Below the pieces are notes generated by a model. It searched no databases. It was not told where the DNA came from and saw only the letters and a list, made by a program, of their open reading frames with translations. This document shows positions 37,421-50,546 of a DNA stretch of 64,000 nucleotides, in pieces. The DNA comes from Herminiimonas sp. CN (lineage in GTDB: Bacteria; Pseudomonadota; Gammaproteobacteria; Burkholderiales; Burkholderiaceae_D). Both the position numbers and the translations under genes were made by a program. The stretch spans positions 1 through 64,000 of the forward strand of contig NZ_AVCC01000003.1 of NCBI RefSeq assembly GCF_000622895.1, in the 5' to 3' direction. Numbering within the stretch: position 1 is the stretch's first letter; every line of letters begins with the position of its first letter.

Positions 37421-37475
37421 ATGCGGCCGCGCTGAAACCGATAGTGCGCCGTTTGATTTACCCGTAAAGATAAAC

Positions 37476-37760
37476 ATGAAGTCTGAAAGCATAGCGACAT
37501 ACGATACCGACCTGCAGAACGAGGTCGCTGAACTGATCGTCCAGGGTTTGAGTCTGGACCAGAGCGCCGCTGCGATCGATCCCGACGAGCCGCTGTATGG
37601 CGATGGTTTGGGGCTGGATTCGATCGATATACTCGAGGTTTCGCTGTTGATTTCCAAGCGTTATGGGATCCAGTTGCGCGCCAACAACGATGACAATCAC
37701 CGCATTTTCAGTTCCCTGCGCAGCTTGACTGCATACATCAGCGCGCAGAGATCGGCCTGA
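37476..37760 (+). CDS. Acyl carrier protein of the aryl-polyene-type pathway
   Basis: The 94-residue acidic protein has the phosphopantetheine site GLGLDSIDILEV, with the attachment Ser at residue 49, and an overall ACP helix pattern. It would carry the growing polyene chain. It is the first gene of a plus-strand operon running to 48962, and its stop overlaps the start of the next gene by one base. Only this ACP is present in the window, while many aryl polyene clusters have two. Confidence 0.9.
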   Translation: MKSESIATYDTDLQNEVAELIVQGLSLDQSAAAIDPDEPLYGDGLGLDSIDILEVSLLISKRYGIQLRANNDDNHRIFSSLRSLTAYISAQRSA

Positions 37761-38398
37761 TGTCCGCGGCGGCCGGGTCAGGGCGCTGGATAGCACTTGT
37801 TGCGCTGGGCGTAGCGTATGCGTGTCTGGCGCACTACACGAATAGCCGCAATGGAACTGAAACGCTGGGTACCGTTTTGGCGCTGGCGCCGATTGTGCTG
37901 GTGCTGCTGTCGATGGCCTGGCAAGCGCGCCACCGGATTGCCGCGCTGCTGGTGTTTTGCATCGGCTGTGCCGCGCTGTATGCTGGATGGAGCATGTTAT
38001 CCCAGCACTTCGCCCGGATTTACTGGCTTGAACATGCTGGCTCCCAACTGATGCTCTGCCTGGGTTTTGCGCGCACGCTGGGTTCCGGCCGGGAACCGAT
38101 GTGTTCCTATTTTGCAAGAATGATCGAAGGTCCGCTAACGCCGCAGCTTGCGCGTTACACCAGACAGGTTACCGGGGCCTGGGCGGTTTTCTTTGCCTTG
38201 ATGGCGCTTGCTTCGACACTGCTTTTCCTGACGGTAGCGCAGTCGACATGGTCGGTATTCGCCAATTTCTTTACCGCGCCGCTGATAGTCCTGATGTTCG
38301 TGCTCGAGTATGGCGCAAGGAAATGCCTGCTGCCGAACATGCAGCACGGGCACATACTTGACGCCATGAAAGTGGTCTGGAAAGTGCCTTCCCGTTAG
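37760..38398 (+). CDS. COG4648-type membrane protein of the polyene cluster
   Basis: The 212-residue protein has about six hydrophobic segments (WIALVALGVAYACLA, TVLALAPIVLVLLSMAW, IAALLVFCIGCAALYAGW and others). It matches the ApeG/COG4648-like membrane protein that accompanies the ACP in aryl polyene clusters. Its role is not established; involvement in export or in anchoring the synthase at the membrane is possible. The start overlaps the ACP stop by one base. Confidence 0.8.
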   Translation: MSAAAGSGRWIALVALGVAYACLAHYTNSRNGTETLGTVLALAPIVLVLLSMAWQARHRIAALLVFCIGCAALYAGWSMLSQHFARIYWLEHAGSQLMLCLGFARTLGSGREPMCSYFARMIEGPLTPQLARYTRQVTGAWAVFFALMALASTLLFLTVAQSTWSVFANFFTAPLIVLMFVLEYGARKCLLPNMQHGHILDAMKVVWKVPSR

Positions 38399-38462
38399 TC
38401 ACGAATGTCACGCATGTCACGAAAATCACGTCCATCATGAGCGCGCGCCGAAACAAAATATC

Positions 38463-39827
38463 ATGCCAACCCTGCCCCTGATCACCCATGAACATGCCGA
38501 CAGCGTGATTGCCTGGCGCGACGGCTGTTCCGTGAGCGCCGCGCAATTTTTGTTCGACGTCGCGCAACTGCGCGAAAAATTGCCTGGCGGTAGCCACATG
38601 CTGAACGGCTGCAACGATCGCTACCGCTTCACCGTTGGGCTGGCTGCGGCACTGCTGAGCAAGAAGATAAGCTTGCTGCCGCCGGCGCAAACGCCGGAAA
38701 TGATGCGTCAATTGCAACTCTTTGCGCCGGATGCATTTTGCCTGACCGATCGCGCGGATTGTGCGATCGCGCTGCCGCAGCTGCAATTCCCCGCGCTGGC
38801 AGCGCTGCCGCAGGCAAAGGAGCCAGCCTTCGCGGTGCCTCAGGTCGATAGCGGGCAAGTGGTCGCCACCGTGTTTACCTCGGGTTCGACCGGGGTCCCT
38901 TGTGCGCATCCGAAAACCTGGGGTGCGCTGGTGCGTAACGTGCAGTCGGCAGCACGCCTGTGCGGCTTGCGCGATGGCCGTCGCCACACTGTGATCGGCA
39001 CCGTGCCGTCGCAGCACATGTTCGGCTTTGAATCGGCGGTACTGATGGCGATGCAAAGCGCAAATGCGCTGGCGGCCGGAGATGCGTTCTATCCGGCCGA
39101 TATTTGCCATGCCATCGCTGCGGCGCCACGGCCGCGGATGCTGGTATCCACGCCGGTGCATTTGCGCGCACTGATGCAGGCAGGATTGCCGGTCCCGGCG
39201 CTCGACCTGATCCTCTCGGCCACCGCGCCATTGTCATCGGCATTGGCAGAACAGCTGGAAGCTGCCTGCCGGGCACCGGTGCTGGAAATTTACGGCAGCA
39301 CCGAAACCGGCAGAATCGCCACCCGCAATCCGGCCCAAACCCCGCAGTGGCAATTGTCAGACGGCATCCGCCTGAACCGGCAAGACGGCGTCACTTGGGC
39401 TTTTGGCGCGCATATCGAATGCGCGACGCCGCTGCAGGATGTGATCGAGCCGATCGGCGAGGATCGCTTCCTGCTGCACGGCCGTACTGCCGACCTGATC
39501 AACATTGCCGGCAAGCGCAGCTCGCTGACGTATTTGAATGTGCAGTTGAATGCGATTCCCGGTGTTGTCGATGGCGCTTTTTTCATGCCGGACGAGGTGG
39601 GACCCGATGGCGTGACGCGACTGACCGCTTTTGTCGTCGCTCCCGGCTGCACGCCGGCGATGCTGATGACCGCGCTGCGGGCACGGGTTGATGCGGTGTT
39701 CCTGCCGCGTCCCCTGATCCTGGTCGACGCGCTGCCGCGCAATGCGAGCGGAAAATTGCCGCGCGCAGCGTTGCAATCGTTGGCGCTTGCCCAATCCGGG
39801 CCAGCCGCCAAGCAGGATGCAGCATGA
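38463..39827 (+). CDS. AMP-dependent acyl ligase (acyl-ACP/CoA synthetase-like)
   Basis: The 454-residue ANL-family enzyme has the ATP-binding motif TSGSTGVPCAHPKTW (residues about 140-155), IYGSTETGR and a C-terminal catalytic Lys in the NASGKLPRAAL segment. It would activate the aryl or fatty-acid starter for loading onto the ACP, as ApeH-like ligases do. The stop overlaps the next start by 4 bp (ATGA). The signature is shorter than in CoA ligases at 61379. Confidence 0.88.
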   Translation: MPTLPLITHEHADSVIAWRDGCSVSAAQFLFDVAQLREKLPGGSHMLNGCNDRYRFTVGLAAALLSKKISLLPPAQTPEMMRQLQLFAPDAFCLTDRADCAIALPQLQFPALAALPQAKEPAFAVPQVDSGQVVATVFTSGSTGVPCAHPKTWGALVRNVQSAARLCGLRDGRRHTVIGTVPSQHMFGFESAVLMAMQSANALAAGDAFYPADICHAIAAAPRPRMLVSTPVHLRALMQAGLPVPALDLILSATAPLSSALAEQLEAACRAPVLEIYGSTETGRIATRNPAQTPQWQLSDGIRLNRQDGVTWAFGAHIECATPLQDVIEPIGEDRFLLHGRTADLINIAGKRSSLTYLNVQLNAIPGVVDGAFFMPDEVGPDGVTRLTAFVVAPGCTPAMLMTALRARVDAVFLPRPLILVDALPRNASGKLPRAALQSLALAQSGPAAKQDAA

Positions 39828-40144
39828 CCGGCGGCCAGTTGCCATGCCAGTTACCATTGGTGATTGCGGCCGACCATCCGGTATTCGCCGGCCACTTTCC
39901 CGGCGCGCCGATCGTCCCTGGCGCCATGCTGCTCGACTTGGCGCTGCAGGCGATAGGCAAGCAGCTCGGAACCGACCTGTCTGCCTGTCAAATAAACGCG
40001 GTCAAGTTCCTCAGCCCGGTGCGCCCTGGCGAGCCGGCATCCGTGCGCTATGCAGCGCTGAACAATGGCGCGCTTCGGTTCGATATCCTGAGCGCTGCGC
40101 GTACCGTGGCGACCGGCACGATTCGTGTCGCGGCGCCGGAGTAG
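39824..40144 (+). CDS. Hotdog-fold 3-hydroxyacyl-ACP dehydratase (ApeI-like)
   Basis: The 106-residue protein has the FabZ/FabA-like HPVFAGHFPGAPIVPGAMLLDLAL stretch, with the catalytic His in GHFPG, and a short hotdog domain. It would remove water in each polyene elongation round. A second, unrelated-looking dehydratase sits at 47738. Translational coupling with the ligase gene is shown by the 4-bp overlap. Confidence 0.88.
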   Translation: MTGGQLPCQLPLVIAADHPVFAGHFPGAPIVPGAMLLDLALQAIGKQLGTDLSACQINAVKFLSPVRPGEPASVRYAALNNGALRFDILSAARTVATGTIRVAAPE

Positions 40145-40151
40145 CGTGCGC

Positions 40152-41084
40152 ATGAAGTCGCCCCAGCAAAATCAGGCTGACTGGCAACATGCGCCGGAGC
40201 GCAGCAACATGCTGATGCTGCGTGCGATGGCATGGATCTCGCTGCGCCTGGGCCGTCCTGCCGGCCGCGTGGTGCTGCACCTGATTGCCGGCTATTTCCT
40301 GCTGTTTGCTCCCGCCAGCAGAGCCGCTTCACGCGATTATCTGGGCCGCATCCTGCCGCGTCCGGTGCGCTGGACCGATATCTACCGTCATTTCTTTTGC
40401 TTTGCCTCTACCATCCACGACCGGATCTACCTGCTCAATCAGCGCTTCGACCTGTTCCAGATCGAGGTCGAGGGCGAACAGCTGCTCCGGCAAGCACTGG
40501 CGGATGGACAGGGCCTGTTCCTGGTGGGCGCCCACATGGGCAGCTTCGAAGTGATTCGTGCGCTGGGATGCCGGCATGCCGGGTTGCAGGTTGCGATGGT
40601 CATGTACGAAGAAAATGCGCGCAAGATCAACCGGATGCTGGCCGCCATCAACCCGGCAGCACAGCAGGATGTGATTGCACTGGGAAAAGTGGATTCGATG
40701 CTGAAAGTCAATGCATGCCTGGAACAGGGCAAGGTCATCGGAATGCTGGCCGACCGCACGCTGGATGACGACGCCGTGCAACCGGTGACGTTGCTGGGCA
40801 GCAGCGCGAACCTGCCGCTTGGGCCATTGCGGATGGCGGCCATCCTGCGCCGTCCGGTATTCTTCATGGCCGGTCTTTACCTGGGAGGGAACCGCTATCA
40901 GATACACTTTGAGCAACTCGCCGATTTTTCCGGCACTCCGCGAGGACAGCGGCAGCTTGAGATGCAGCGGGCGCTGGCACGGTATGCGCAATTACTGGAA
41001 AAATGCTGTCAGCGCGCGCCGTATAACTGGTTCAATTTTTTCAATTTCTGGCAATCTGCAGCAGCCAAAAGCAAACAGGACTGA
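40152..41084 (+). CDS. LpxL/HtrB-like lysophospholipid acyltransferase
   Basis: The roughly 310-residue protein has a hydrophobic N-terminal segment (about residues 30-45), the acyltransferase block GLFLVGAHMGSFEVIRALG with His near the expected HX4-type position (His-Met-Gly-Ser-Phe-Glu), and MLADRTLDDD. It belongs with LPLAT enzymes of aryl polyene clusters, which may acylate the lipid carrier. ATG at 40152 is used; a GTG at 40146 is a near alternative. It overlaps nothing but follows the dehydratase after 7 bp. Confidence 0.86.
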   Translation: MKSPQQNQADWQHAPERSNMLMLRAMAWISLRLGRPAGRVVLHLIAGYFLLFAPASRAASRDYLGRILPRPVRWTDIYRHFFCFASTIHDRIYLLNQRFDLFQIEVEGEQLLRQALADGQGLFLVGAHMGSFEVIRALGCRHAGLQVAMVMYEENARKINRMLAAINPAAQQDVIALGKVDSMLKVNACLEQGKVIGMLADRTLDDDAVQPVTLLGSSANLPLGPLRMAAILRRPVFFMAGLYLGGNRYQIHFEQLADFSGTPRGQRQLEMQRALARYAQLLEKCCQRAPYNWFNFFNFWQSAAAKSKQD

Positions 41085-41087
41085 CCG

Positions 41088-41693
41088 ATGAATGTTGCCG
41101 CGCTACCAGCGATTTTCCGCACTGCGATCGCATTTTTTCTGCTGGCTGTCGCCCTGCTGCAGCCGACGCACGCGCTCGCCGCAGGCTGGAACCTTGAGCA
41201 GCTGATGCAATCGCTGGCGCTGGCGAAGTCGGGCCGCGCCACTTTCGTCGAGAAAAAAACCATCGCGATGCTCGACCGGCCGCTGGAGTCTTCAGGCGAA
41301 TTGCAATATATCGCGCCCAACATCCTGGAAAAACGCACCGTCAAACCGAAACCGGAAACCATGCGGGTGGAAGGCGATGTTTTGACGATAGAGCGGGGGC
41401 GCCAGAAATTTACCTTGTCATTGCAAAATTACCCGGAAGTTGCCGGCTTCATCGACAGCATCCGCGGCACGCTGGCAGGCGACCGCAAGGCGCTGGAGCG
41501 CTCGTATAAACTGAAGCTGGAAGGCAACGCAGAACACTGGCTGCTGTCGCTGGCGCCAATCGACGCCAAAATGGCGACCCAGATTCATTTGATCCAGATC
41601 GCCGGCAGTGCAGATAATGTGCGCAGCATCAATGTCATCCAGACCGACGGCGATCGTTCGCTGATGACGATCGACCGGATCGCCGCACAATGA
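41088..41693 (+). CDS. LolA-like outer-membrane lipoprotein carrier
   Basis: The 201-residue protein has a signal peptide (about 32 residues, cut near ALA-A) and a LolA-like beta domain: ATFVEKKTIAMLDRPLESSGEL, YIAPNILEKRTVKPKPETM, VEGDVLTIERGRQKF. LolA-like proteins of polyene clusters probably shuttle the lipid-linked pigment across the periplasm from the MMPL exporter encoded next. The stop overlaps the next start (ATGA). Confidence 0.86.
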   Translation: MNVAALPAIFRTAIAFFLLAVALLQPTHALAAGWNLEQLMQSLALAKSGRATFVEKKTIAMLDRPLESSGELQYIAPNILEKRTVKPKPETMRVEGDVLTIERGRQKFTLSLQNYPEVAGFIDSIRGTLAGDRKALERSYKLKLEGNAEHWLLSLAPIDAKMATQIHLIQIAGSADNVRSINVIQTDGDRSLMTIDRIAAQ

Positions 41694-44101
41694 AGCGCTT
41701 GCAGTCGCGCCGGATGGCGCTCGCGGCCTGGCTGCTGGGGCTGGCAATGTGTTGCGTGGTGATTGCCCGCACCACATTCATCACCGATCTGTCGGGGTTC
41801 CTGCCGCAGTCGCCGACCAAGGAGCAGCGGGTATTGCTGGATCAGTTGCGGGAAGGGGTCGTATCGCGGCTGATCCTGATCGGGATCGAAGGCGGCGACG
41901 CGGCGTTGCGTGCGGCGCTGTCGAAAGAAACTGCCAAACGCTTGCGCGCCGCCCCGGCATTCGTGACGGTCAATAACGGCGAGCCGCTGAATGCCGAGCG
42001 GGATCAGGCGTTCCTGTTTGACAACCGCTATTTACTCAGTCCGGCGGTCACGCCCGATCGATTTTCTGTTGCCGGCTTGCATGCCGCAATCGGCGACACC
42101 ATCGATTTACTGGTTTCTCCGGCCGGCCTGTTGATCAAGCCGCTGCTGCCGCGCGACCCGACTGGCGAGATCGTGCAGCTGCTGGGACAGATGAACGGCG
42201 CCAATCAGCCACGCATGCAGTACGGCACCTGGGCCTCACACGATGCTGCGCGGGCGCTGCTGCTGGTGCAAACACGCGCTGCCGGCGCCGATACCGATGC
42301 TCAGGAGCACGCCATGCAGCAGATCCGGCAAGCCTTCGAAGCGGCACGCCGGCAACATGGTGCAAGCGGGGCGGCAGTCAAACTGGCGATGACCGGACCG
42401 GGCGTGTTCTCGGTGCTGTCGCGCCAGACCATCAAAAGCGAAGTCACCCGCCTGTCCGTCATCAGCACCGCCATCATCGTCGCTTTGCTGTGGCTGGTGT
42501 ACCGTTCCTTGACCGCGCTGGCGCTCGGACTGTTGCCGGTGATTTCCGGTGCCCTGGTGGCGGTGGTAGCGGTCAGTCTTGGATTCGGCGCGGTGCATGG
42601 CATCACGCTCGGGTTCGGCACCACGCTGATCGGTGAAGCGGTCGATTATTCGATCTATCTCTTCGTCCAGTCGCGGCAATCGAGTGCCGAAGGCAGTAGT
42701 GCCCGGCTGGACTGGGTCGCCGATTTCTGGCCGACGATCCGGCTCGGCGTGCTGACATCGGTCACCGGCTTTGCTTCCCTGCTGCTGTCGAGCTTTCCGG
42801 GGCTGGCCCAGCTCGGCCTGTATTCGATTGCCGGCCTGATCGCGGCCGCGGCGGTGACCCGATTCGTCCTGCCCCAGCTCTTGCACGACAACTTCCGGAT
42901 TCGCGACGTGTCCGCAATCGGATGCGGATTGTCCGGCGCGGCACGGCGGGCGAGCGCGTTGCGCTGGCCCTTGATCCTGCTGATCCTGGCGGCGGCGGGG
43001 GTCGTCGTGCTGCACCGCACTACGCTGTGGAATCCTGAACTGTCTTCCCTGAGCCCGGTGTCGCAGGCAGATCAGGCCACCGATGCCGGTCTGCGCGCGG
43101 ACATGGGGGCGCCGGACGTGCGTTACATGGTGGTATTGTCCGGCGCGGAGCGGGAAGCGGTATTGCAGTCAACCGAGAAAATTGCCGAACAATTGCAGCC
43201 GCTGGTGGATCAGGGCATCCTGGCCGGTTTTCAGAGTCCCAGCCAGTTTCTGCCTAGCGTGGCGGCGCAACGTGCGCGGCAAGCCAGTCTGCCGGCAGCG
43301 CAGCTGGCGCAGCGACTGCAGCAGGCAACCATCGGCCTGCCGGTACGGCCCGAACTGTTCGCGCCCTTCGTCGCCGATGTGGCAAAAGCCAAAAACCGCG
43401 CGCCGCTGCAACGCAGCGATTTAGACCATACCTCGCTGGCGCTGGCGCTCGATTCCTTGCTGTACCAGCGCGGCAGCAGCTGGAATGCGGTGCTGCCATT
43501 GACAGCCTCGGCGTCCGGCCAGTCGGCCGGGATTGCGACTGCGCCGGTGCGCGCCGCGCTTGCCTTGGCCGGCCAGCCGAATGCGCTGCTGGTCGACCTG
43601 AAAGCGGAATCCGATCATTTGTATCAGGGCTATCTGCGCGAGGCCGTCATGCTGTCGCTGGCCGGCCTGGCCGGCATCGTGCTGCTGTTATTGTTTTCCT
43701 TGCGTTCGCCGCTGGCGGTAATCCGCGTCATGGCGCCGCTGCTGGGCGCCATAGTCGTGGTCGTTGCCGGGCTGGCATTGTGCGGTCAGCGCCTGACGAT
43801 CCTGCATCTGGTCGGACTGTTGCTGATCGTTGCGGTCGGCTCCAACTATGCATTGTTTTTCAATCAGCCAGGCCGCGGCGCTGCGGGCATCACGCCGCAA
43901 ACCCTGACTTCTCTGGTGTTTGCCAATCTGACCACGGTGGCCGGCTTTGGCTTGCTTGGCTTCTCGACGGTGCCGGTACTGCAGGCGATCGGCAGCACGG
44001 TTGGGCCCGGCGCTGTGCTGGCACTGATTTTTTCGGCGGTTTTTGCCAGCCAGAAGATCGCCGGCAGGCAGCCTGAAAAGCAGCCCGGATCTGCGCGCTG
44101 A
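41690..44101 (+). CDS. MMPL-family exporter
   Basis: The 803-residue RND-superfamily protein has two MMPL domains. Twelve membrane segments can be counted roughly: one at the N-terminus, five around residues 265-420 (LSVISTAIIVALLWLVYRSL, GITLGFGTTLIGEAVDYSIYLF), one near 445, and five after about 650 (LSLAGLAGIVLLLLFSL, LLLIVAVGSNYALFFNQ). Charged residues in the DYSIYLF and SNYALFF segments fit proton coupling. It is the likely exporter of the polyene product, with the LolA-like protein as partner. Confidence 0.92.
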   Translation: MKRLQSRRMALAAWLLGLAMCCVVIARTTFITDLSGFLPQSPTKEQRVLLDQLREGVVSRLILIGIEGGDAALRAALSKETAKRLRAAPAFVTVNNGEPLNAERDQAFLFDNRYLLSPAVTPDRFSVAGLHAAIGDTIDLLVSPAGLLIKPLLPRDPTGEIVQLLGQMNGANQPRMQYGTWASHDAARALLLVQTRAAGADTDAQEHAMQQIRQAFEAARRQHGASGAAVKLAMTGPGVFSVLSRQTIKSEVTRLSVISTAIIVALLWLVYRSLTALALGLLPVISGALVAVVAVSLGFGAVHGITLGFGTTLIGEAVDYSIYLFVQSRQSSAEGSSARLDWVADFWPTIRLGVLTSVTGFASLLLSSFPGLAQLGLYSIAGLIAAAAVTRFVLPQLLHDNFRIRDVSAIGCGLSGAARRASALRWPLILLILAAAGVVVLHRTTLWNPELSSLSPVSQADQATDAGLRADMGAPDVRYMVVLSGAEREAVLQSTEKIAEQLQPLVDQGILAGFQSPSQFLPSVAAQRARQASLPAAQLAQRLQQATIGLPVRPELFAPFVADVAKAKNRAPLQRSDLDHTSLALALDSLLYQRGSSWNAVLPLTASASGQSAGIATAPVRAALALAGQPNALLVDLKAESDHLYQGYLREAVMLSLAGLAGIVLLLLFSLRSPLAVIRVMAPLLGAIVVVVAGLALCGQRLTILHLVGLLLIVAVGSNYALFFNQPGRGAAGITPQTLTSLVFANLTTVAGFGLLGFSTVPVLQAIGSTVGPGAVLALIFSAVFASQKIAGRQPEKQPGSAR

Positions 44102-44104
44102 CCG

Positions 44105-44812
44105 ATGCGCATCCTGTCCGACTTCGCGATTCCGGGCCAGCGCGCGCCAGCGCTGGCGATCCTGCTGCCGGGCGCGCTGCAGCAACCGGAAGACCTGGTG
44201 CGCGCCGGCTTCATCGAGACGGTACGCCAGCGCGCTGTGCCGCTCGACTTGGCGCTGCTCGATCTTGGCCTTGAATATATCGGTGACAGCACCGACGGCA
44301 CAGTTTTGCAGCGCATCCACGATCGCGTGGTGCAGCCGGCACGGCTTAATAATTATTGTGAAATCTGGCTGGTCGGGATCTCCATCGGCGGTTTCATGGC
44401 GATCTCTTATGCCGAGCGTTATCCCGGCCAGATCAGCGGATTGTGCCTGCTGGCGCCTTACCCCGGCAACCGCATTCTGACCGGCCAGATCAGGGCTGCC
44501 GGCGGACTGCAGCGGTGGCATGCAAATTCTGCGGCAGGCGATGATGCCGAGTGTCGGGTCTGGCGCTGGCTGCACACGCAGCGCACACAAACCGCAACTG
44601 CGCAGAGTCCGCAGATCCATCTGGGCTATGGCCGCGAAGACCGCTTCGGGTCAGGGCTGGACCTGATGGCCGACGCGCTGGCGGCGCATGCCGATACCGT
44701 TGCCGGCGGCCACGACTGGCAGGCCTGGCAGCAGTTATGGATCAATTTTATTGACCGGACAGCAACACGTTTCGGGCATGGCAACCGGATACCGTCGCAT
44801 GATGCACAATAA
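44105..44812 (+). CDS. Alpha/beta hydrolase in the polyene operon
   Basis: The 235-residue protein has the nucleophile elbow GISIGGFMA with Ser as nucleophile, an Asp in GYGREDRFGSG and a His in GGHDWQAW, forming a plausible Ser-Asp-His triad. The substrate is unknown; it could be a thioesterase releasing the chain or an esterase on the lipid carrier. It has no signal peptide. The start is 4 bp after the MMPL stop, and its end overlaps the deacetylase gene. Confidence 0.82.
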   Translation: MRILSDFAIPGQRAPALAILLPGALQQPEDLVRAGFIETVRQRAVPLDLALLDLGLEYIGDSTDGTVLQRIHDRVVQPARLNNYCEIWLVGISIGGFMAISYAERYPGQISGLCLLAPYPGNRILTGQIRAAGGLQRWHANSAAGDDAECRVWRWLHTQRTQTATAQSPQIHLGYGREDRFGSGLDLMADALAAHADTVAGGHDWQAWQQLWINFIDRTATRFGHGNRIPSHDAQ

Positions 44813-45638
44813 TTCATTGCGCTGGCGGCCGACAGCGCTGGTCAGCCTCACCATTTTGCTGCATGTGGCGCTGCTGGCGACGCTGGTTGCGGCGCCTCTG
44901 GCCGTGGCCCATGCCTGGCGCTGGGTACTGGCGATCATCTTGGCCAACCACTTCCTGATCACGCTGGTCGGCTTGTGGCCGCGCAGCACCTGGCTCGGTC
45001 CGAACTGGATCCGATTGCCGCCCGCTTCTGCTGCCCAGGGTGAAATTGCCTTGACCATTGACGATGGGCCGGATCCGGACGTGACGCCGCAGGTGCTCGA
45101 GATGCTGGATCGCTATGGCGTCAAGGCAAGTTTTTTTTGCATCGGCGACAACGCTGCCCGTTATCCCGACATGTGCAGAAACATCGTCGAGCGCGGGCAT
45201 ACGCTTGAAAACCATAGCCAGCGGCACCGCCACAATTTTTCGCTGCTCGGCCTGCGCGGCCTGCGGCGCGAGATACAGGCCGGGCAGAATACATTGAGCG
45301 CGATCACCGGCTGCGCACCCTTGTTTTTTCGGGCCCCGGCCGGCTTGCGCAACATCTTTCTGGCCCCGGTGTTGGCCGGGCTTGGATTGCATCTGGCGAC
45401 CTGGAGCCGGCGCGGTTTCGACACCAATACCGCAGATACTGCGCTGGTCTGCCGCCGGCTGACGCAGAATCTGAAAGCGGGCGACATCTTGCTGCTGCAC
45501 GATGGCAATTGCGCGCAGACCAGCGCCGGCGTGCCGGTGATCATCGCGGTGTTGCCGCTGCTGTGCGAAGCTGCTGCCAAGGCCGGATTGCGTTTCGTCA
45601 CGCTGCCGGATGCGCTGCAATCCGGATGCCGCGACTAG
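44799..45638 (+). CDS. Membrane-anchored polysaccharide deacetylase (NodB family) in the polyene operon
   Basis: The 279-residue protein has two N-terminal hydrophobic segments (about residues 10-60), then a NodB domain: TIDDGPDPDVTPQVL with the catalytic and zinc Asp, ENHSQRHRHNF with the two zinc His, the FFRAPAG segment and GDILLLHDGN. It would remove acetyl groups from an N-acetyl sugar outside or at the inner membrane face. Start is uncertain: ATG 44799 (GGATA 7 bp before) or 44778. It overlaps the hydrolase gene and is followed by a 100-bp gap before the ketosynthase. Confidence 0.85.
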   Translation: MMHNNSLRWRPTALVSLTILLHVALLATLVAAPLAVAHAWRWVLAIILANHFLITLVGLWPRSTWLGPNWIRLPPASAAQGEIALTIDDGPDPDVTPQVLEMLDRYGVKASFFCIGDNAARYPDMCRNIVERGHTLENHSQRHRHNFSLLGLRGLRREIQAGQNTLSAITGCAPLFFRAPAGLRNIFLAPVLAGLGLHLATWSRRGFDTNTADTALVCRRLTQNLKAGDILLLHDGNCAQTSAGVPVIIAVLPLLCEAAAKAGLRFVTLPDALQSGCRD

Positions 45639-45738
45639 ACAACCGGCCTGTCGTTACATCCGGTACCAACCGATCTGTTCAGCGCAACGATTTAGTTTGC
45701 TAGAATCGCGGCACAACCCACCAACGAGTCGCTTTTCC

Positions 45739-46932
45739 TTGAAACCGCTCTTTCTCTCGCACTTCACGACCACCAGCTGCCTCGGTCGCGGTCTGTCCCA
45801 GACCCTGGAGGCGTTGCGCCAGCGCCAAAGCGGCCTGATGCCCTGCGATTTCGATATCGTCGATCTCGATACCTACATAGGCGCGGTCGCCGGTGTCGAC
45901 GAGGTCAAGCTGCGGGCCGACCTGCAGGCGTTCGACTGCCGCAACAACCGTCTGCTGCAACTCGCGCTGGAGCAGGACGGTTTTGCCGACGCGGTAACAA
46001 CGGCTATCGGACGCTACGGCCGCCAGCGGGTCGGCGTGTTCCTGGGCACTAGCACCGCCGGCATCCTGCAAACCGAACTGGCTTACCGGCGGCGCGATAG
46101 CGTGACAAGCGCACTGCCGGCGGATTTTCATTATGCGGAAACGCACAATACTTTTTCTGCCGCCAATTTCATGCAGCGGTATTTCGGCCTGAGCGGGCCG
46201 GCAGCGGTGGTTTCCTCGGCCTGCTCCTCCAGCGCAAAGGTATTTGGTTCGGCGCGGCGCATGATCGAGGCCGGCATCATCGATGCCGCGCTGGTCGGCG
46301 GCGTCGATTCGCTGTGCCTGACCACGCTGTATGGCTTCAATTCGCTGGGCTTGCTCTCGGCGCAGCCTTGCCGTCCCTTTGATACGGAGCGCAATGGCAT
46401 CTCGATCGGCGAAGCTGCTGCGCTGGTGCTGCTGGAGCGGCTGCCGGACAGCGCCGATGCCGACGCCGTCCTGTTGCTGGGAGTGGGCGAGTCGAGCGAC
46501 GCTTACCACATGTCGTCGCCGCATCCGGACGGCCTGGGGGCGAAAATTGCCATGCAAAATGCCTTGCGCATCGCGCACCTGCTGCCCGAGCAGATCGATT
46601 ACATCAACCTGCACGGCACTGCCACTGTCAGCAATGACGCCGCGGAAGGCCGCGCGGTAGCCGCCTTGTTCGGTGCATCGACCCCGTGCAGCTCCACCAA
46701 GGGCGCCACCGGTCACACGCTGGGAGCCGCCGGCGGCGTCGAGGCGGTGATTTGTGCATTGGCACTGCAACACGGCTTGATGCCGGGAGGCATCAACACC
46801 AGCCAGTGCGATCCTGATTTGCCATTGCATTACTTGCTAGACAATGGTGCGCAACGCGTTGATCGCGTGCTCAGCAACTCTTTCGGTTTCGGCGGCACCA
46901 ATTGCAGCCTGATCTTCGGCCGCGCCAACTGA
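45739..46932 (+). CDS. Beta-ketoacyl-ACP synthase (KS-alpha, ApeO-like)
   Basis: The roughly 397-residue enzyme extends the polyene chain. The catalytic Cys162 lies in SSACSSSAK; the two His are in NLHGTATVSND and TGHTLGAAGG, and the C-terminus has SNSFGFGGTN. The reading frame starts with a TTG at 45739, since no ATG fits and the homologous core begins just after. It pairs with the chain-length factor encoded next, as in aryl polyene systems. Confidence 0.9.
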   Translation: MKPLFLSHFTTTSCLGRGLSQTLEALRQRQSGLMPCDFDIVDLDTYIGAVAGVDEVKLRADLQAFDCRNNRLLQLALEQDGFADAVTTAIGRYGRQRVGVFLGTSTAGILQTELAYRRRDSVTSALPADFHYAETHNTFSAANFMQRYFGLSGPAAVVSSACSSSAKVFGSARRMIEAGIIDAALVGGVDSLCLTTLYGFNSLGLLSAQPCRPFDTERNGISIGEAAALVLLERLPDSADADAVLLLGVGESSDAYHMSSPHPDGLGAKIAMQNALRIAHLLPEQIDYINLHGTATVSNDAAEGRAVAALFGASTPCSSTKGATGHTLGAAGGVEAVICALALQHGLMPGGINTSQCDPDLPLHYLLDNGAQRVDRVLSNSFGFGGTNCSLIFGRAN

Positions 46933-46946
46933 ATGAATTTCCCAGC

Positions 46947-47747
46947 ATGAATACTCTGACCGCTTACATCGACGGCATCGGGCTGCTCGGACCCGGATTC
47001 AAGGACTGGCCCAGCGGCCGCGCCATACTGGCCGGGCAGGCCGCCTACCTGCATCAGCCTACCGTGCTGCCGCCAGCAGCCGCGCTACCGCCGGCAGAGC
47101 GGCGCCGCTGCGGCCCGATCGTCAAACTGTCGCTGGCGGTCGGCTTCGAGGCCGCTGCTGCGGCCGGCCTGGACAGCGCCGGATTGCCGACCGTGTTTTC
47201 CGCTTCCAGCGGCGATGGCGATAATTGCCACCAGATTTGCCAGATGCTGGCTTCCGATGACCGGCAAATTTCACCGACCCGGTTCCACAATTCGGTGCAT
47301 AACGCGGCAGCCGGTTACTGGGCTATCGCGGCCAAGGCGATGGCGCCGTCATCGGTGTTGGGTGCGCATGACGCCAGTTTCGGCGCCGGCCTGCTGGAAG
47401 CCTTGAGCCAGGTGATGGTCGACCATGCCAGTACCTTGCTGATTGCCTGCGACAGCACTTATCCGGAACCGCTGCACCGGGCAAGGCCGGTTCCCGCTGA
47501 ATTTGGCATCGGATTGGTGCTGGCGCCACAGCGCTGCGCCAACTCGCTGGCCAGGATCCGGGTTGCGCTCACCTCCGCCAGTGCCGAGCAGATGGCCGAC
47601 AGGGTGCTGGAAAATCTCAGGGCAGCAATCCCGGCGGCGCGCGGCCTGCCGCTGCTGCATGCGATAGCGAACCGGGCCTCGACGAGGCTGGTGATCGATT
47701 ACCTCGACAGCACCCGGCTTGCGGTGGAAATCGACTCGTGGGCCTAG
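46947..47747 (+). CDS. Ketosynthase chain-length factor (ApeC-like, PF13723 type)
   Basis: The 266-residue protein is a truncated ketosynthase homologue with the FSASSGDGDNCHQICQML, RFHNSVHNAAAGYWAIA and ASTLLIACDSTYPEPL stretches typical of the beta-ketoacyl synthase chain-length-factor family. The usual active-site Cys position is not conserved (GAHDASFGAG), so it is a non-catalytic partner of the synthase encoded just upstream. Length, about 260, is normal for ApeC. It overlaps the following dehydratase by 10 bp. Confidence 0.86.
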   Translation: MNTLTAYIDGIGLLGPGFKDWPSGRAILAGQAAYLHQPTVLPPAAALPPAERRRCGPIVKLSLAVGFEAAAAAGLDSAGLPTVFSASSGDGDNCHQICQMLASDDRQISPTRFHNSVHNAAAGYWAIAAKAMAPSSVLGAHDASFGAGLLEALSQVMVDHASTLLIACDSTYPEPLHRARPVPAEFGIGLVLAPQRCANSLARIRVALTSASAEQMADRVLENLRAAIPAARGLPLLHAIANRASTRLVIDYLDSTRLAVEIDSWA

Positions 47748-48205
47748 ATCGCGCCTGGATTGCTGCGCACATCCCGCATCAGGGCGACATGTGCCTGCTG
47801 CAGCGGGTGGACGACTGGGATGCGCAAGGCGTGCGCTGCAGCGCAATCAGCCATCGCGCGCCCAACAATCCCTTGCGCGCGCATGGACGGCTGGGGGCTG
47901 CCTGCGGCATCGAATACGCGGCTCAGACCATGGCGGTGCATGGCGCGCTGCTGGCGTTGCAACAGGCACCGGCGCAGGCACCGGCGAAGGTCGGCTTCCT
48001 GGCCAGCGTGCGTGCGGCCAGATTGCATGTCGGCCGGCTCGACGATATTGCCGCCGATCTGACGGTGGAAGCCAGACAATTCAGCGGCGATGGCAATAAT
48101 GTTTTATACGATTTCTGGGTGCGCGCCGAGGGCCGTATCCTGCTGGAGGGCAGGGCTGCGGTGATCATCAATGCGGCTGCAGTCGCCCATCATGCAGAAC
48201 CATGA
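47738..48205 (+). CDS. Hotdog-fold dehydratase (ApeP-like)
   Basis: The 155-residue protein starts at a GTG that overlaps the previous gene. HIPHQGDMCLLQRVDDWD, followed by AHGRLGAACGIEYAAQTMAVHG, is the pattern of ApeP-type 3-hydroxyacyl-ACP dehydratases, and the histidine in the first segment is the expected catalytic one. Together with the smaller dehydratase at 39824 it would form the double-bond pattern in the chain. Confidence 0.85.
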   Translation: MGLDRAWIAAHIPHQGDMCLLQRVDDWDAQGVRCSAISHRAPNNPLRAHGRLGAACGIEYAAQTMAVHGALLALQQAPAQAPAKVGFLASVRAARLHVGRLDDIAADLTVEARQFSGDGNNVLYDFWVRAEGRILLEGRAAVIINAAAVAHHAEP

Positions 48206-48242
48206 CAAGAAAGCATCAACCGTTGCGATCGGAACCACAACC

Positions 48243-48962
48243 ATGAAACAGGCTCTTGTTACCGGCGGCAGTGGCGCCATCGGCGCCGCCATCTGCCGCG
48301 GTCTGGCGGCGGATGGCCACCATGTGCTGGTGCATGCGAATACCCGGCGCGCGGAGGCGCAACAGGTGGTGGACGCGATCAGCGCGCTCGGCGGCAGTGC
48401 CGAAGTGCTGGTATTCGACGTCACCGATGCGGCGGCAGTGGCTGCCAGTCTGCAGCCCCTGATTGAGGTCGCGCCGATCCAGATCCTGGTCAACAATGCC
48501 GGGATTCACGACGATGCAATATTCCCTGGCATGCAGTTCGATCAATGGCAGCGCGTGATCGACGTTTCGCTGCACGGTTTTTTCCACGTCACCCACACCT
48601 TGATGATGCCGATGATCCGCAGCCGCTGGGGCCGCATCATCAACATGTCATCGGTGGCCGCGCTCTGCGGCAATCGCGGCCAGGTGAATTATTCGGCCGC
48701 CAAGGGCGCACTCAACGCCGCCACCAAGTCGCTGGCGCTGGAAATCGCCAGTCGCGGTATTACCGTCAACGCGGTGGCGCCGGGGATTATCGACAGCGCG
48801 ATGAGCCAGAGCGCCTTTGATGCGCAGGCCATAGCCCGCATGGTGCCGATGAAACGCGCCGGCCAGCCGGAGGAAGTCGCCGACCTGGTATGTTTTCTGG
48901 CCTCGCCGCGCGCCGCGTACATCACCGGTCAAATCATCTCGATCAACGGCGGCCTGCTGTGA
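48243..48962 (+). CDS. 3-oxoacyl-ACP reductase (FabG-like, ApeQ)
   Basis: The 239-residue short-chain dehydrogenase has the NADPH motif VTGGSGAIGAAICRGLAAD, an NNAG segment (ILVNNAGIHDD), the catalytic Ser in INMSSVAALCG and Tyr/Lys in NYSAAKG. It would reduce each ketone during elongation. It is the last gene of the operon. An earlier in-frame ATG at 48192 would add 17 residues; the start used has a GGAAC-type ribosome site. The stop is 16 bp from the stop of the opposing gene. Confidence 0.9.
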   Translation: MKQALVTGGSGAIGAAICRGLAADGHHVLVHANTRRAEAQQVVDAISALGGSAEVLVFDVTDAAAVAASLQPLIEVAPIQILVNNAGIHDDAIFPGMQFDQWQRVIDVSLHGFFHVTHTLMMPMIRSRWGRIINMSSVAALCGNRGQVNYSAAKGALNAATKSLALEIASRGITVNAVAPGIIDSAMSQSAFDAQAIARMVPMKRAGQPEEVADLVCFLASPRAAYITGQIISINGGLL

Positions 48963-48978
48963 CGGCGACGATAGGCAG

Positions 48979-49734
48979 CTAGCGCAGCTTGCGCAGCAGC
49001 AGGTACGGCAGGCGCAGCAGGAACCCCAGCAGCAGGCGGCTGTGCATCCAGGTCAGAAGCAGGTTGTCGCGCAGATAGTTGAAATGCGACACGCCGCCTT
49101 CTGCGGCGCTGAAATAGCGCACCGGTGCCGCCAGATTGAGCGGTTTGACGCCGTGCCAGCACAGCCGCACCACCGCTTCCGGATCGAAGTCAAAGCGGCG
49201 CATCCAGGGCTGGCGCCGCATCACTGCGCGCAACGGCGCAATCGGATAGACCCGGAACCCGAACAGCGAATCGCCGATGCCGGCCCACAGGGTTTCCAGG
49301 TTGGCCCACCAGTTCGAGATCCGCCGCCCCTGGACCCGCAGGCGCGGCGCGCTGGCGTCGAACTGCGGCATGCCGAGCACCATGCAGCCGGGTTGGGTGT
49401 GCGATGCAGCCATGAAGGCGGGGATCAGCTCAGCCGGATGCTGGCCATCCGAATCCATCGTCAGCGCATGGGTGTAGCCAAGGGCGGCAGCCTGCTCCAG
49501 GCCATGCAATACCGCGGCGCCCTTGCCGCTGTTTTCCGGCAAGACAATCACCCGCAGGCCGGCATCGCTGGCCGCCATCGCCTGCAATGGCGCAGTGGTG
49601 CCATCGGTGCTGCCGTCGATTACGACCCATACCGGATTCCAGTATTGCCGTGCTGCCCGCACGGTTGCAACTACTTTCGGGCCAGGGTTGTAGCTTGGAA
49701 TCAACACCAGATGGGTCGGGGAGGGAGAAGTCAT
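48979..49734 (-). CDS. Family 2 glycosyltransferase beside the polyene operon
   Basis: The 251-residue GT-A enzyme has VLIPSYNPGPKVVATV near the N-terminus, the DGSTDGT segment, SGKGAAVLHG and the DSDGQHP metal motif. A C-terminal amphipathic or hydrophobic stretch (LLLGFLLRLPYLLLRKL) may tie it to the membrane. Glycosyltransferases of this kind occur in aryl polyene clusters and may add a sugar to the lipid carrier. It follows the acyltransferase gene by 26 bp on the minus strand. Confidence 0.88.
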   Translation of the reverse strand: MTSPSPTHLVLIPSYNPGPKVVATVRAARQYWNPVWVVIDGSTDGTTAPLQAMAASDAGLRVIVLPENSGKGAAVLHGLEQAAALGYTHALTMDSDGQHPAELIPAFMAASHTQPGCMVLGMPQFDASAPRLRVQGRRISNWWANLETLWAGIGDSLFGFRVYPIAPLRAVMRRQPWMRRFDFDPEAVVRLCWHGVKPLNLAAPVRYFSAAEGGVSHFNYLRDNLLLTWMHSRLLLGFLLRLPYLLLRKLR

Positions 49735-49760
49735 CGCAGCGAACGGTAAGGAGTGTTTGG

Positions 49761-50546
49761 TTAGGATGCGTCAGCGGCGGCTGCCGGCCCCGGTGGTGAT
49801 ACCGGTACGGCAAGCTGGCTGGCAAAATACTGGGCTAATTCCGCCATGAATGCGGCGCCGTTTTCAGGCGGCGGGAAACGCTTGCCCAGGCGCACCCGGT
49901 AATGCATCGGCAGACGCGGCTTTTTGAAGAGCGGCCATTGCTTGCTCAGAAACGGCGAGTCGGTTTCAATCAACACCGTCTGGATCGGCGTTTTTGCGCG
50001 GCAGGCGATCACGCCTATGCTGCCTTTCAGCGGGCCGATCGGGCGCTGCACGGTACGGGTTCCTTCCGGAAACAGCAGCAGGTGGCTGCCGCGCTGCAAG
50101 TTCTGCACCGCCTGCATGACCATCTGCCGTGGCGGAGCGTTGCTGATGTAGCGTGCCAGGCGGGCGCCGCCGCCGAGAAATATATTGCTGAGGATGTCGG
50201 CTTTCATGATGCAGGCAACGTCCGGCAGGCGCGAGGCAATCAGGACCACATCCCATAACGAAGGGTGATTAGAGGCGATGATCAGGGATTTATCCTTGCG
50301 CAGTGCATCCAGTTCGCGCAAGTCGAAATGGAAGCGGCCCGATAGCGTCAACGCAGCCAGAGTCAGCCGGAACACCGCCATGATCGCCAGACGCCCCAGC
50401 GCGCGCCCCAGTCGGGCCGGCAACAGCGGATGCAAAACCAGGGCAAGCAGCGACCAGAGCAGAAAAAACAGGCCGACCCAGAGCGAACCAAGGCAGCAGA
50501 CCAGGTATTCGTAAGCCGTCAGCAGGTTTCTCAGACAAAATTTCAT
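49761..50546 (-). CDS. PlsC-like 1-acyl-glycerol-3-phosphate acyltransferase
   Basis: The 261-residue membrane-associated enzyme has two N-terminal hydrophobic segments (about residues 10-45), the HX4D block IIASNHPSLWDVVLIASRLP (His then Asp five places on), and FPEGTRTV. It would acylate a lysolipid; being beside the glycosyltransferase and the polyene operon it may make the lipid anchor. The start at 50546 begins with a standard membrane-facing N-terminus. Confidence 0.87.
   Translation of the reverse strand: MKFCLRNLLTAYEYLVCCLGSLWVGLFFLLWSLLALVLHPLLPARLGRALGRLAIMAVFRLTLAALTLSGRFHFDLRELDALRKDKSLIIASNHPSLWDVVLIASRLPDVACIMKADILSNIFLGGGARLARYISNAPPRQMVMQAVQNLQRGSHLLLFPEGTRTVQRPIGPLKGSIGVIACRAKTPIQTVLIETDSPFLSKQWPLFKKPRLPMHYRVRLGKRFPPPENGAAFMAELAQYFASQLAVPVSPPGPAAAADAS

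Follow-up and report, generated by a model that had tools for sequence, protein, structure and literature searches.

An arc-type aryl polyene operon of Herminiimonas sp. CN with a NodB-type deacetylase that may act on the sugar of the pigment's lipid anchor

Aryl polyenes (APEs) are described as the most widespread family of bacterial gene clusters, and the gene functions of the E. coli ape cluster, which serve as the basis of comparison here, are those of the same study, in which an apeK deletion reduced the pigment but did not abolish it (PMC8253772). A second source names N-acetylglucosamine as the sugar to which ApeJ joins the polyene in some products (PMC8776678). A different arrangement is on record for Azoarcus sp. 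BH72 (Schöner 2014). There, one locus carries arcP (exporter), arcO (hypothetical), arcN (PS-deacetylase) and arcM (methyltransferase), a second locus carries arcK, arcJ, arcI, arcH, arcE and arcD, formation of the pigment arcuflavin requires both loci, and the sections consulted assign arcN no role (PMC3949708). A direct search of the open literature returned no paper that discusses a deacetylase as part of APE biosynthesis.

The stretch of Herminiimonas sp. CN DNA analysed here (64,000 nucleotides; the window) contains a complete cluster at 37443-50546, which holds both an alpha/beta hydrolase and a deacetylase (Table 1). By its gene content this is an APE biosynthetic cluster: it has a ketosynthase and chain-length-factor pair, a ketoreductase, a dehydratase, an ACP and an aryl-ACP ligase, together with genes for LolA/MMPL export and for glycosyl- and acyltransferases of the ApeJ/ApeD type. 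An initial annotation had placed the hydrolase and the deacetylase within an aryl polyene operon, between the MMPL exporter and the ketosynthase, and the gene-by-gene match to ape, with all core polyene genes present, agrees with this on both points. The glycosyltransferase and two acyltransferases to which it drew attention are likewise present (GT2, PlsC-type and LpxL-type), but these are ordinary APE components and not additions. Family similarity of the ketosynthase begins at approximately residue 45 of its open reading frame, the start of which is probably over-extended, with the true start at about 45.7 kb. The resulting gap between the deacetylase stop and this probable start (45639-45735) contains a -10-like TAGAAT, and an internal promoter at this place is possible.

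Table 1. Genes of the aryl polyene cluster, with their positions in the window and the basis of each assignment.
Feature	Position	Strand	Basis
ACP (ApeE-like), GLDSID motif	37443..37757	+	44% to E. coli ApeE, E 4e-19
COG4648-type membrane protein (ApeG-like)	37760..38398	+	40% over 52 aa to E. coli ApeG, E 2e-5; position kept in relatives
AMP-dependent aryl starter ligase (ApeH/ArcT-like)	38463..39827	+	Pfam AMP-binding 3.6e-20; ApeH E 1.6e-18
Hotdog dehydratase (ApeI-like)	39824..40144	+	FabA-like domain; ApeI E 2e-6
LpxL-type acyltransferase, equivalent to ApeJ C-terminal half	40125..41084	+	Lip_A_acyltrans 1.9e-11; ApeJ residues 245-558, E 9e-35
LolA-like periplasmic carrier (ApeL-like)	41088..41693	+	LolA_3 7.7e-27; ApeL E 1e-8
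MMPL/RND exporter (ApeM-like)	41690..44101	+	MMPL 1.2e-13; ApeM E 5e-18
Alpha/beta hydrolase, triad S93/D179/H203; probably ArcO position	44105..44812	+	flanked by exporter and deacetylase in most relatives
CE4/NodB-type deacetylase (ArcN-like), N-terminal two-helix membrane hairpin	44799..45638	+	ORF open to 44688; homologue starts near 44799
Ketosynthase (ApeO-like; PRK09185 subfamily)	45610..46932	+	NF006618 568 bits; 46% to ApeO
Short ketosynthase / chain-length factor (ApeC-like)	46902..47747	+	Ketoacyl-synt_2 7e-27; ApeC E 6e-13
Second dehydratase (ApeP position)	47738..48205	+	position and conservation in relatives; no match in Pfam or in blastp with ApeP
Ketoreductase (ApeQ-like)	48171..48962	+	adh_short_C2 7.6e-53; 47% to ApeQ
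Family 2 glycosyltransferase (GT2), equivalent to ApeJ N-terminal half	48979..49734	-	41% to ApeJ residues 9-243, E 2e-56
PlsC-type lysophospholipid acyltransferase (ApeD-like)	49761..50546	-	Acyltransferase 6.8e-15; ApeD E 2e-26

The cluster of E. coli CFT073 has counterparts in the window for its ACP and for ApeG, H, I, J (both halves), L, M, O, C, Q and D, whereas ApeA, B, F, K, N and R are absent. Conversely, E. coli ape contains neither the hydrolase nor the deacetylase, and in the window this pair fills the slot between exporter and ketosynthase that ApeN (DUF3261) occupies in E. coli. In the gene list for Azoarcus, arcV (ACP), arcU, arcT (ligase), arcS (dehydratase), arcR (acyltransferase), arcQ (LolA), arcP (exporter), arcO and arcN (PS-deacetylase) occur in the same order as in the window, and arcK/J/I/H/E/D (ketosynthase, short ketosynthase, dehydratase, ketoreductase, glycosyltransferase and acyltransferase) all have counterparts there; ArcO is probably the window hydrolase, as its position suggests. 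In Azoarcus, however, the set is spread over two loci and, by the same list, is accompanied by the arcM methyltransferase, a XanB2-type chorismatase, a halogenase and dar genes. In view of the arc gene order listed for Azoarcus BH72, the window can be described, on gene content and order, as an arc-type (xanthomonadin-like) APE operon gathered at one locus, with one gene between the exporter and a PS-deacetylase, a single ACP, and no ApeK, ApeN or ApeR. This description extends to the gene order and not to the production of arcuflavin. The view of the initial annotation that the genes represent a distinct form of polyene-lipid pathway has to be given up, as the order had been tabulated in 2014 in the Azoarcus report (PMC3949708) and is common in Burkholderiales. 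What is proposed here for an arrangement already on record is a plausible role of the deacetylase in the lipid anchor of the pigment. Four loci (L074, L076, L078 and L080) have a class I SAM methyltransferase gene following the deacetylase, where arcM lies in Azoarcus; no methyltransferase stands between deacetylase and ketosynthase in the window or in L003, its close relative.

The deacetylase is encoded by a genuine open reading frame with a Polysacc_deac_1 match (E 8.8e-25). Residues T102, D104, D105, H155, H159, R194, W218, D224 and H250 (numbering from 44751) are invariant in 18 homologues, and thus the zinc and catalytic set of the CE4 family is intact, as had been noted initially. The motifs TxDDGP, HSxxH, RAPxG, WxxxGxD and LLHDG and the CE4 fold place the protein among the polysaccharide deacetylases (PF01522), but its scores lie below the cut-offs of both the NodB chitooligosaccharide deacetylases (TIGR04243; 104.1 against 240 bits) and the peptidoglycan GlcNAc deacetylases (96.7 against 400 bits). 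In the AlphaFold model (mean pLDDT 81) the CE4 domain is preceded by helices 27-47 and 55-75, which fit the two membrane segments described earlier. The closest solved structures to the CE4 domain are carbohydrate N- and O-deacetylases, namely acetylxylan esterase 7fbw as the top match and peptidoglycan deacetylases. Since the helical hairpin carries positive residues at both outer ends and has a short, mostly uncharged loop, the enzyme is predicted, from charge and hydropathy, to be anchored in the membrane with its catalytic domain facing the cytoplasm. The start at 44688 appears over-extended, with homologues beginning near the ATG at 44799/44802; the reported overlap with the hydrolase gene therefore exists, but amounts to 11-14 bp and not 125 bp.

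The hydrolase gene is also real and encodes a product of 235 residues. Its Ser93 (in GISIGG), Asp179 and His203, the set recognised in the initial annotation, are invariant in an alignment of 20-21 homologues. This triad, generic Pfam matches and a low-confidence fold model place it in the alpha/beta hydrolase superfamily; the Pfam matches are weak, and domain and fold comparison assigned no subfamily. The fold matches include hydrolases, but carry little weight because the model is poor (mean pLDDT 62). No hydrolase match was obtained in 5 of 26 deacetylase-bearing genomes (G053, G025, G050, G007 and G022, some of them incomplete or fragmented), among which G053 is a close relative, and an obligate hydrolase-deacetylase pair was therefore rejected. 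The hydrolase is missing as well from all three arc-type clusters that lack the deacetylase. Because of these two kinds of absence it is regarded as an accessory component, dispensable on comparative grounds and with a role less certain than that of the deacetylase. A hydrolase paralogue of approximately 38% identity occurs outside pigment clusters in L063-L069 and L093, and in L093 adjoins a PlsC-type acyltransferase.

A survey of the deacetylase-ketosynthase neighbourhood, as suggested in the initial annotation, covered 294 Oxalobacteraceae genomes, 26 of which contain a close homologue of the deacetylase and 27 of the ketosynthase. The deacetylase is present in 24 of the 27 ketosynthase-type genomes versus 2 of the 267 others (Fisher p ~1e-29, uncorrected for shared ancestry), and in nearly all of these 24 the two genes adjoin on one contig; the linkage is far beyond chance. 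The three exceptions with this ketosynthase (G087, G065 and G182) lack ApeK as well as the deacetylase. Approximately 100 further Oxalobacteraceae genomes have a distant, E. coli-like ketosynthase only. Neither the hydrolase nor the deacetylase was found within any of 16 E. coli-type APE clusters inspected in these genomes, nearly all of which have ApeK and ApeN and most ApeR and/or ApeB. Profile searches retrieved a deacetylase homologue from 45 genomes in a set of 300 from Burkholderiales, and from 23 in a class sample of 369. Of 47 loci with a strong deacetylase match (L079 duplicates L004), 35 have three or more APE genes within ~10 kb, and NodB homologues adjoin MMPL/KS1 in Burkholderiales and beyond. 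A set of 22 genomes was selected chiefly because no linkage could be seen; in 17 of them the close ketosynthase is located elsewhere in the genome. Since the linkage recurs so widely, its absence from related genomes, which had been named as the observation that would speak against the proposal, is not what is seen. Chance or an annotation artefact was rejected as an explanation of the two genes, on motif conservation and linkage. In L092 (G022) the deacetylase is kept beside a COG4648 gene, the arc-type ketosynthase is gone, and the only cluster left is one of the E. coli type elsewhere. Mixed clusters exist too: in L183 and L184, from distant class members, a 34% deacetylase homologue lies beside the ketoreductase, with E. 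coli-type ApeJ, ApeK and ApeN.

The distribution of the glycosyltransferase follows that of the deacetylase. All 24 Oxalobacteraceae genomes with the deacetylase and this ketosynthase contain the window GT2 at 66-100% identity, whereas the three deacetylase-less genomes have only a 30% relative or none, so that both genes are present in 24 genomes and neither in 3; genomes of the E. coli type have a version at 41-43%. Additional genomes in this comparison were chosen on the deacetylase or the ketosynthase, and the relatives are not independent. Four genomes beyond Burkholderiales (G791, G915, G595 and G747) have a more distant deacetylase homologue without this GT2 subtype. This co-variation is the principal indication from sequence that the deacetylase may act on the product of the glycosyltransferase, and it fits a route of glycosyl transfer, N-deacetylation, acylation and export, although it could also reflect the shared ancestry of a sub-clade. 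An argument from gene fusion, by which glycosyltransferase and LpxL-type acyltransferase, fused in E. coli ApeJ, would be split here so that the deacetylase can act, was dropped, because in most E. coli-type clusters of this family the two are separate genes as well.

Taken as a whole, the locus is best explained as an arc-type operon in which a NodB-type enzyme would N-deacetylate a GlcNAc-type sugar before acylation and export, a reading to which we assign a probability of roughly 0.55. With an ApeJ-type glycosyltransferase, a CE4 enzyme predicted to face the cytoplasm and two acyltransferases, GlcNAc transfer, N-deacetylation, acylation and export form the simplest reading. In this scheme UbiC-derived 4-hydroxybenzoate would be attached to the ACP and elongated into a polyene, and GT2 would transfer a sugar of the GlcNAc type to an acceptor, either lipid or polyene, at the inner membrane. 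The deacetylase, anchored in the membrane, would then remove the N-acetyl group on the cytoplasmic side, which is a plausible chemistry; the LpxL- and PlsC-type enzymes would acylate the resulting glucosamine lipid, for which the polyene itself may serve as the acyl group, and MMPL and LolA would move the acylated lipid to the outer membrane. The hydrolase may be an accessory esterase or thioesterase, perhaps replacing ApeK. UbiC is present in the genome of the window. A XanB2-type chorismatase (PF21168), which would supply 3-HBA/4-HBA in an arc-type cluster, was not found in this genome; this is a weak negative, as no control genome matched. The model does match a relative's protein. DarB was not found either in this genome (94% complete), which has one canonical FabH; by eye, the other two ACP_syn_III_C matches resemble a thiolase and an HMG-CoA-synthase-like protein that has a zinc ribbon. 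With UbiC present and XanB2 and DarB not found, the expected product is a polyene lipid started from 4-hydroxybenzoate and free of resorcinol.

More tentatively, and rather less likely than not, the product may be a distinct arc-type polyene lipid, the amino sugar of which is N-deacetylated on the cytoplasmic side and then N-acylated, perhaps as a polyene amide. Such an aryl-polyene glucosamine lipid would be unlike the N-acetylglucosamine-linked form of E. coli-type clusters and would be assembled in a Nod-factor-like order of glycosyltransferase, deacetylase and acyltransferase. In rhizobia, the glycosyltransferase NodC, the NodB-family N-deacetylase and the acyltransferase NodA act in this order, and NodB proper is a soluble enzyme that acts on chitin oligomers. 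The window genes would at most work alike, with the deacetylase at 104 bits against the NodB equivalog cut-off of 240. APE lipids in general can be made without the deacetylase, because it is absent from working E. coli-type clusters; its association with one subtype of glycosyltransferase divides the APE clusters into two groups, for which a difference in the anchor sugar is predicted.

The cytoplasmic placement of the CE4 domain by charge would also suit an ArnD-like enzyme whose substrate is a polyprenyl-phosphate-linked sugar, the product of the glycosyltransferase, with the trimmed sugar then transferred onto the polyene lipid. A soluble GT2 of modest size, with no obvious membrane part, and its strict co-variation with the NodB-type gene are in keeping with such a route, but the cluster has no ArnT-like or flippase gene and the NCBIfam matches are to NodB/PgdA-type models and not to a deformylase, so that we consider it rather unlikely. 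The predicted hairpin topology also bears on whether the enzyme could be a peptidoglycan deacetylase that rides in the pigment operon by chance. The GlcNAc deacetylases Bc1960 and PgdA are among its best sequence and fold matches; against this stand the predicted cytoplasmic domain, the score far below the family cut-off, and the tight linkage to APE genes in many families and to one glycosyltransferase subtype, which make the idea improbable.

The key addition could instead be the hydrolase, as a release thioesterase that replaces ApeK, with the deacetylase trimming a chain or lipid ester and not an N-acetyl group. ApeK is missing from all arc-type loci examined, the Ser-Asp-His set is invariant, and CE4 includes acetylxylan (O-)esterases, to which the top fold match belongs. 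That the hydrolase stands in for the missing ApeK is possible from its gene context. It is nevertheless lacking from part of the deacetylase genomes, including G053, and from the three deacetylase-less arc-type clusters, which also lack ApeK; moreover, a thioesterase is not essential, because E. coli retains reduced pigment on deletion of apeK (PMC8253772). We regard this explanation as a poor prospect. The gene order shared with the Azoarcus arc locus (PMC3949708) would accord with an arcuflavin-type product, a polyene/dialkylresorcinol ester to which the sugar genes are incidental; with no DarB found in the window genome, a dialkylresorcinol hybrid was rejected and a product of this type is very improbable.

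Xanthomonadin-like clusters of genus g22 share with the window the deacetylase, hydrolase, GT2, PlsC-type acyltransferase, ketosynthase pair and exporter in one neighbourhood, but possess in addition an FkbO/Hyg5-like chorismatase and tryptophan-halogenase-like enzymes, which the window cluster lacks. The deacetylase-bearing cluster is rearranged in L083, L084, L085, L087 and L090, and a scan of L083 revealed the chorismatase and two tryptophan-halogenase-like FAD enzymes; this gene content suggests a halogenated, xanthomonadin-like pigment. In these relatives the hydrolase gene lies between a halogenase-like gene and the chorismatase.
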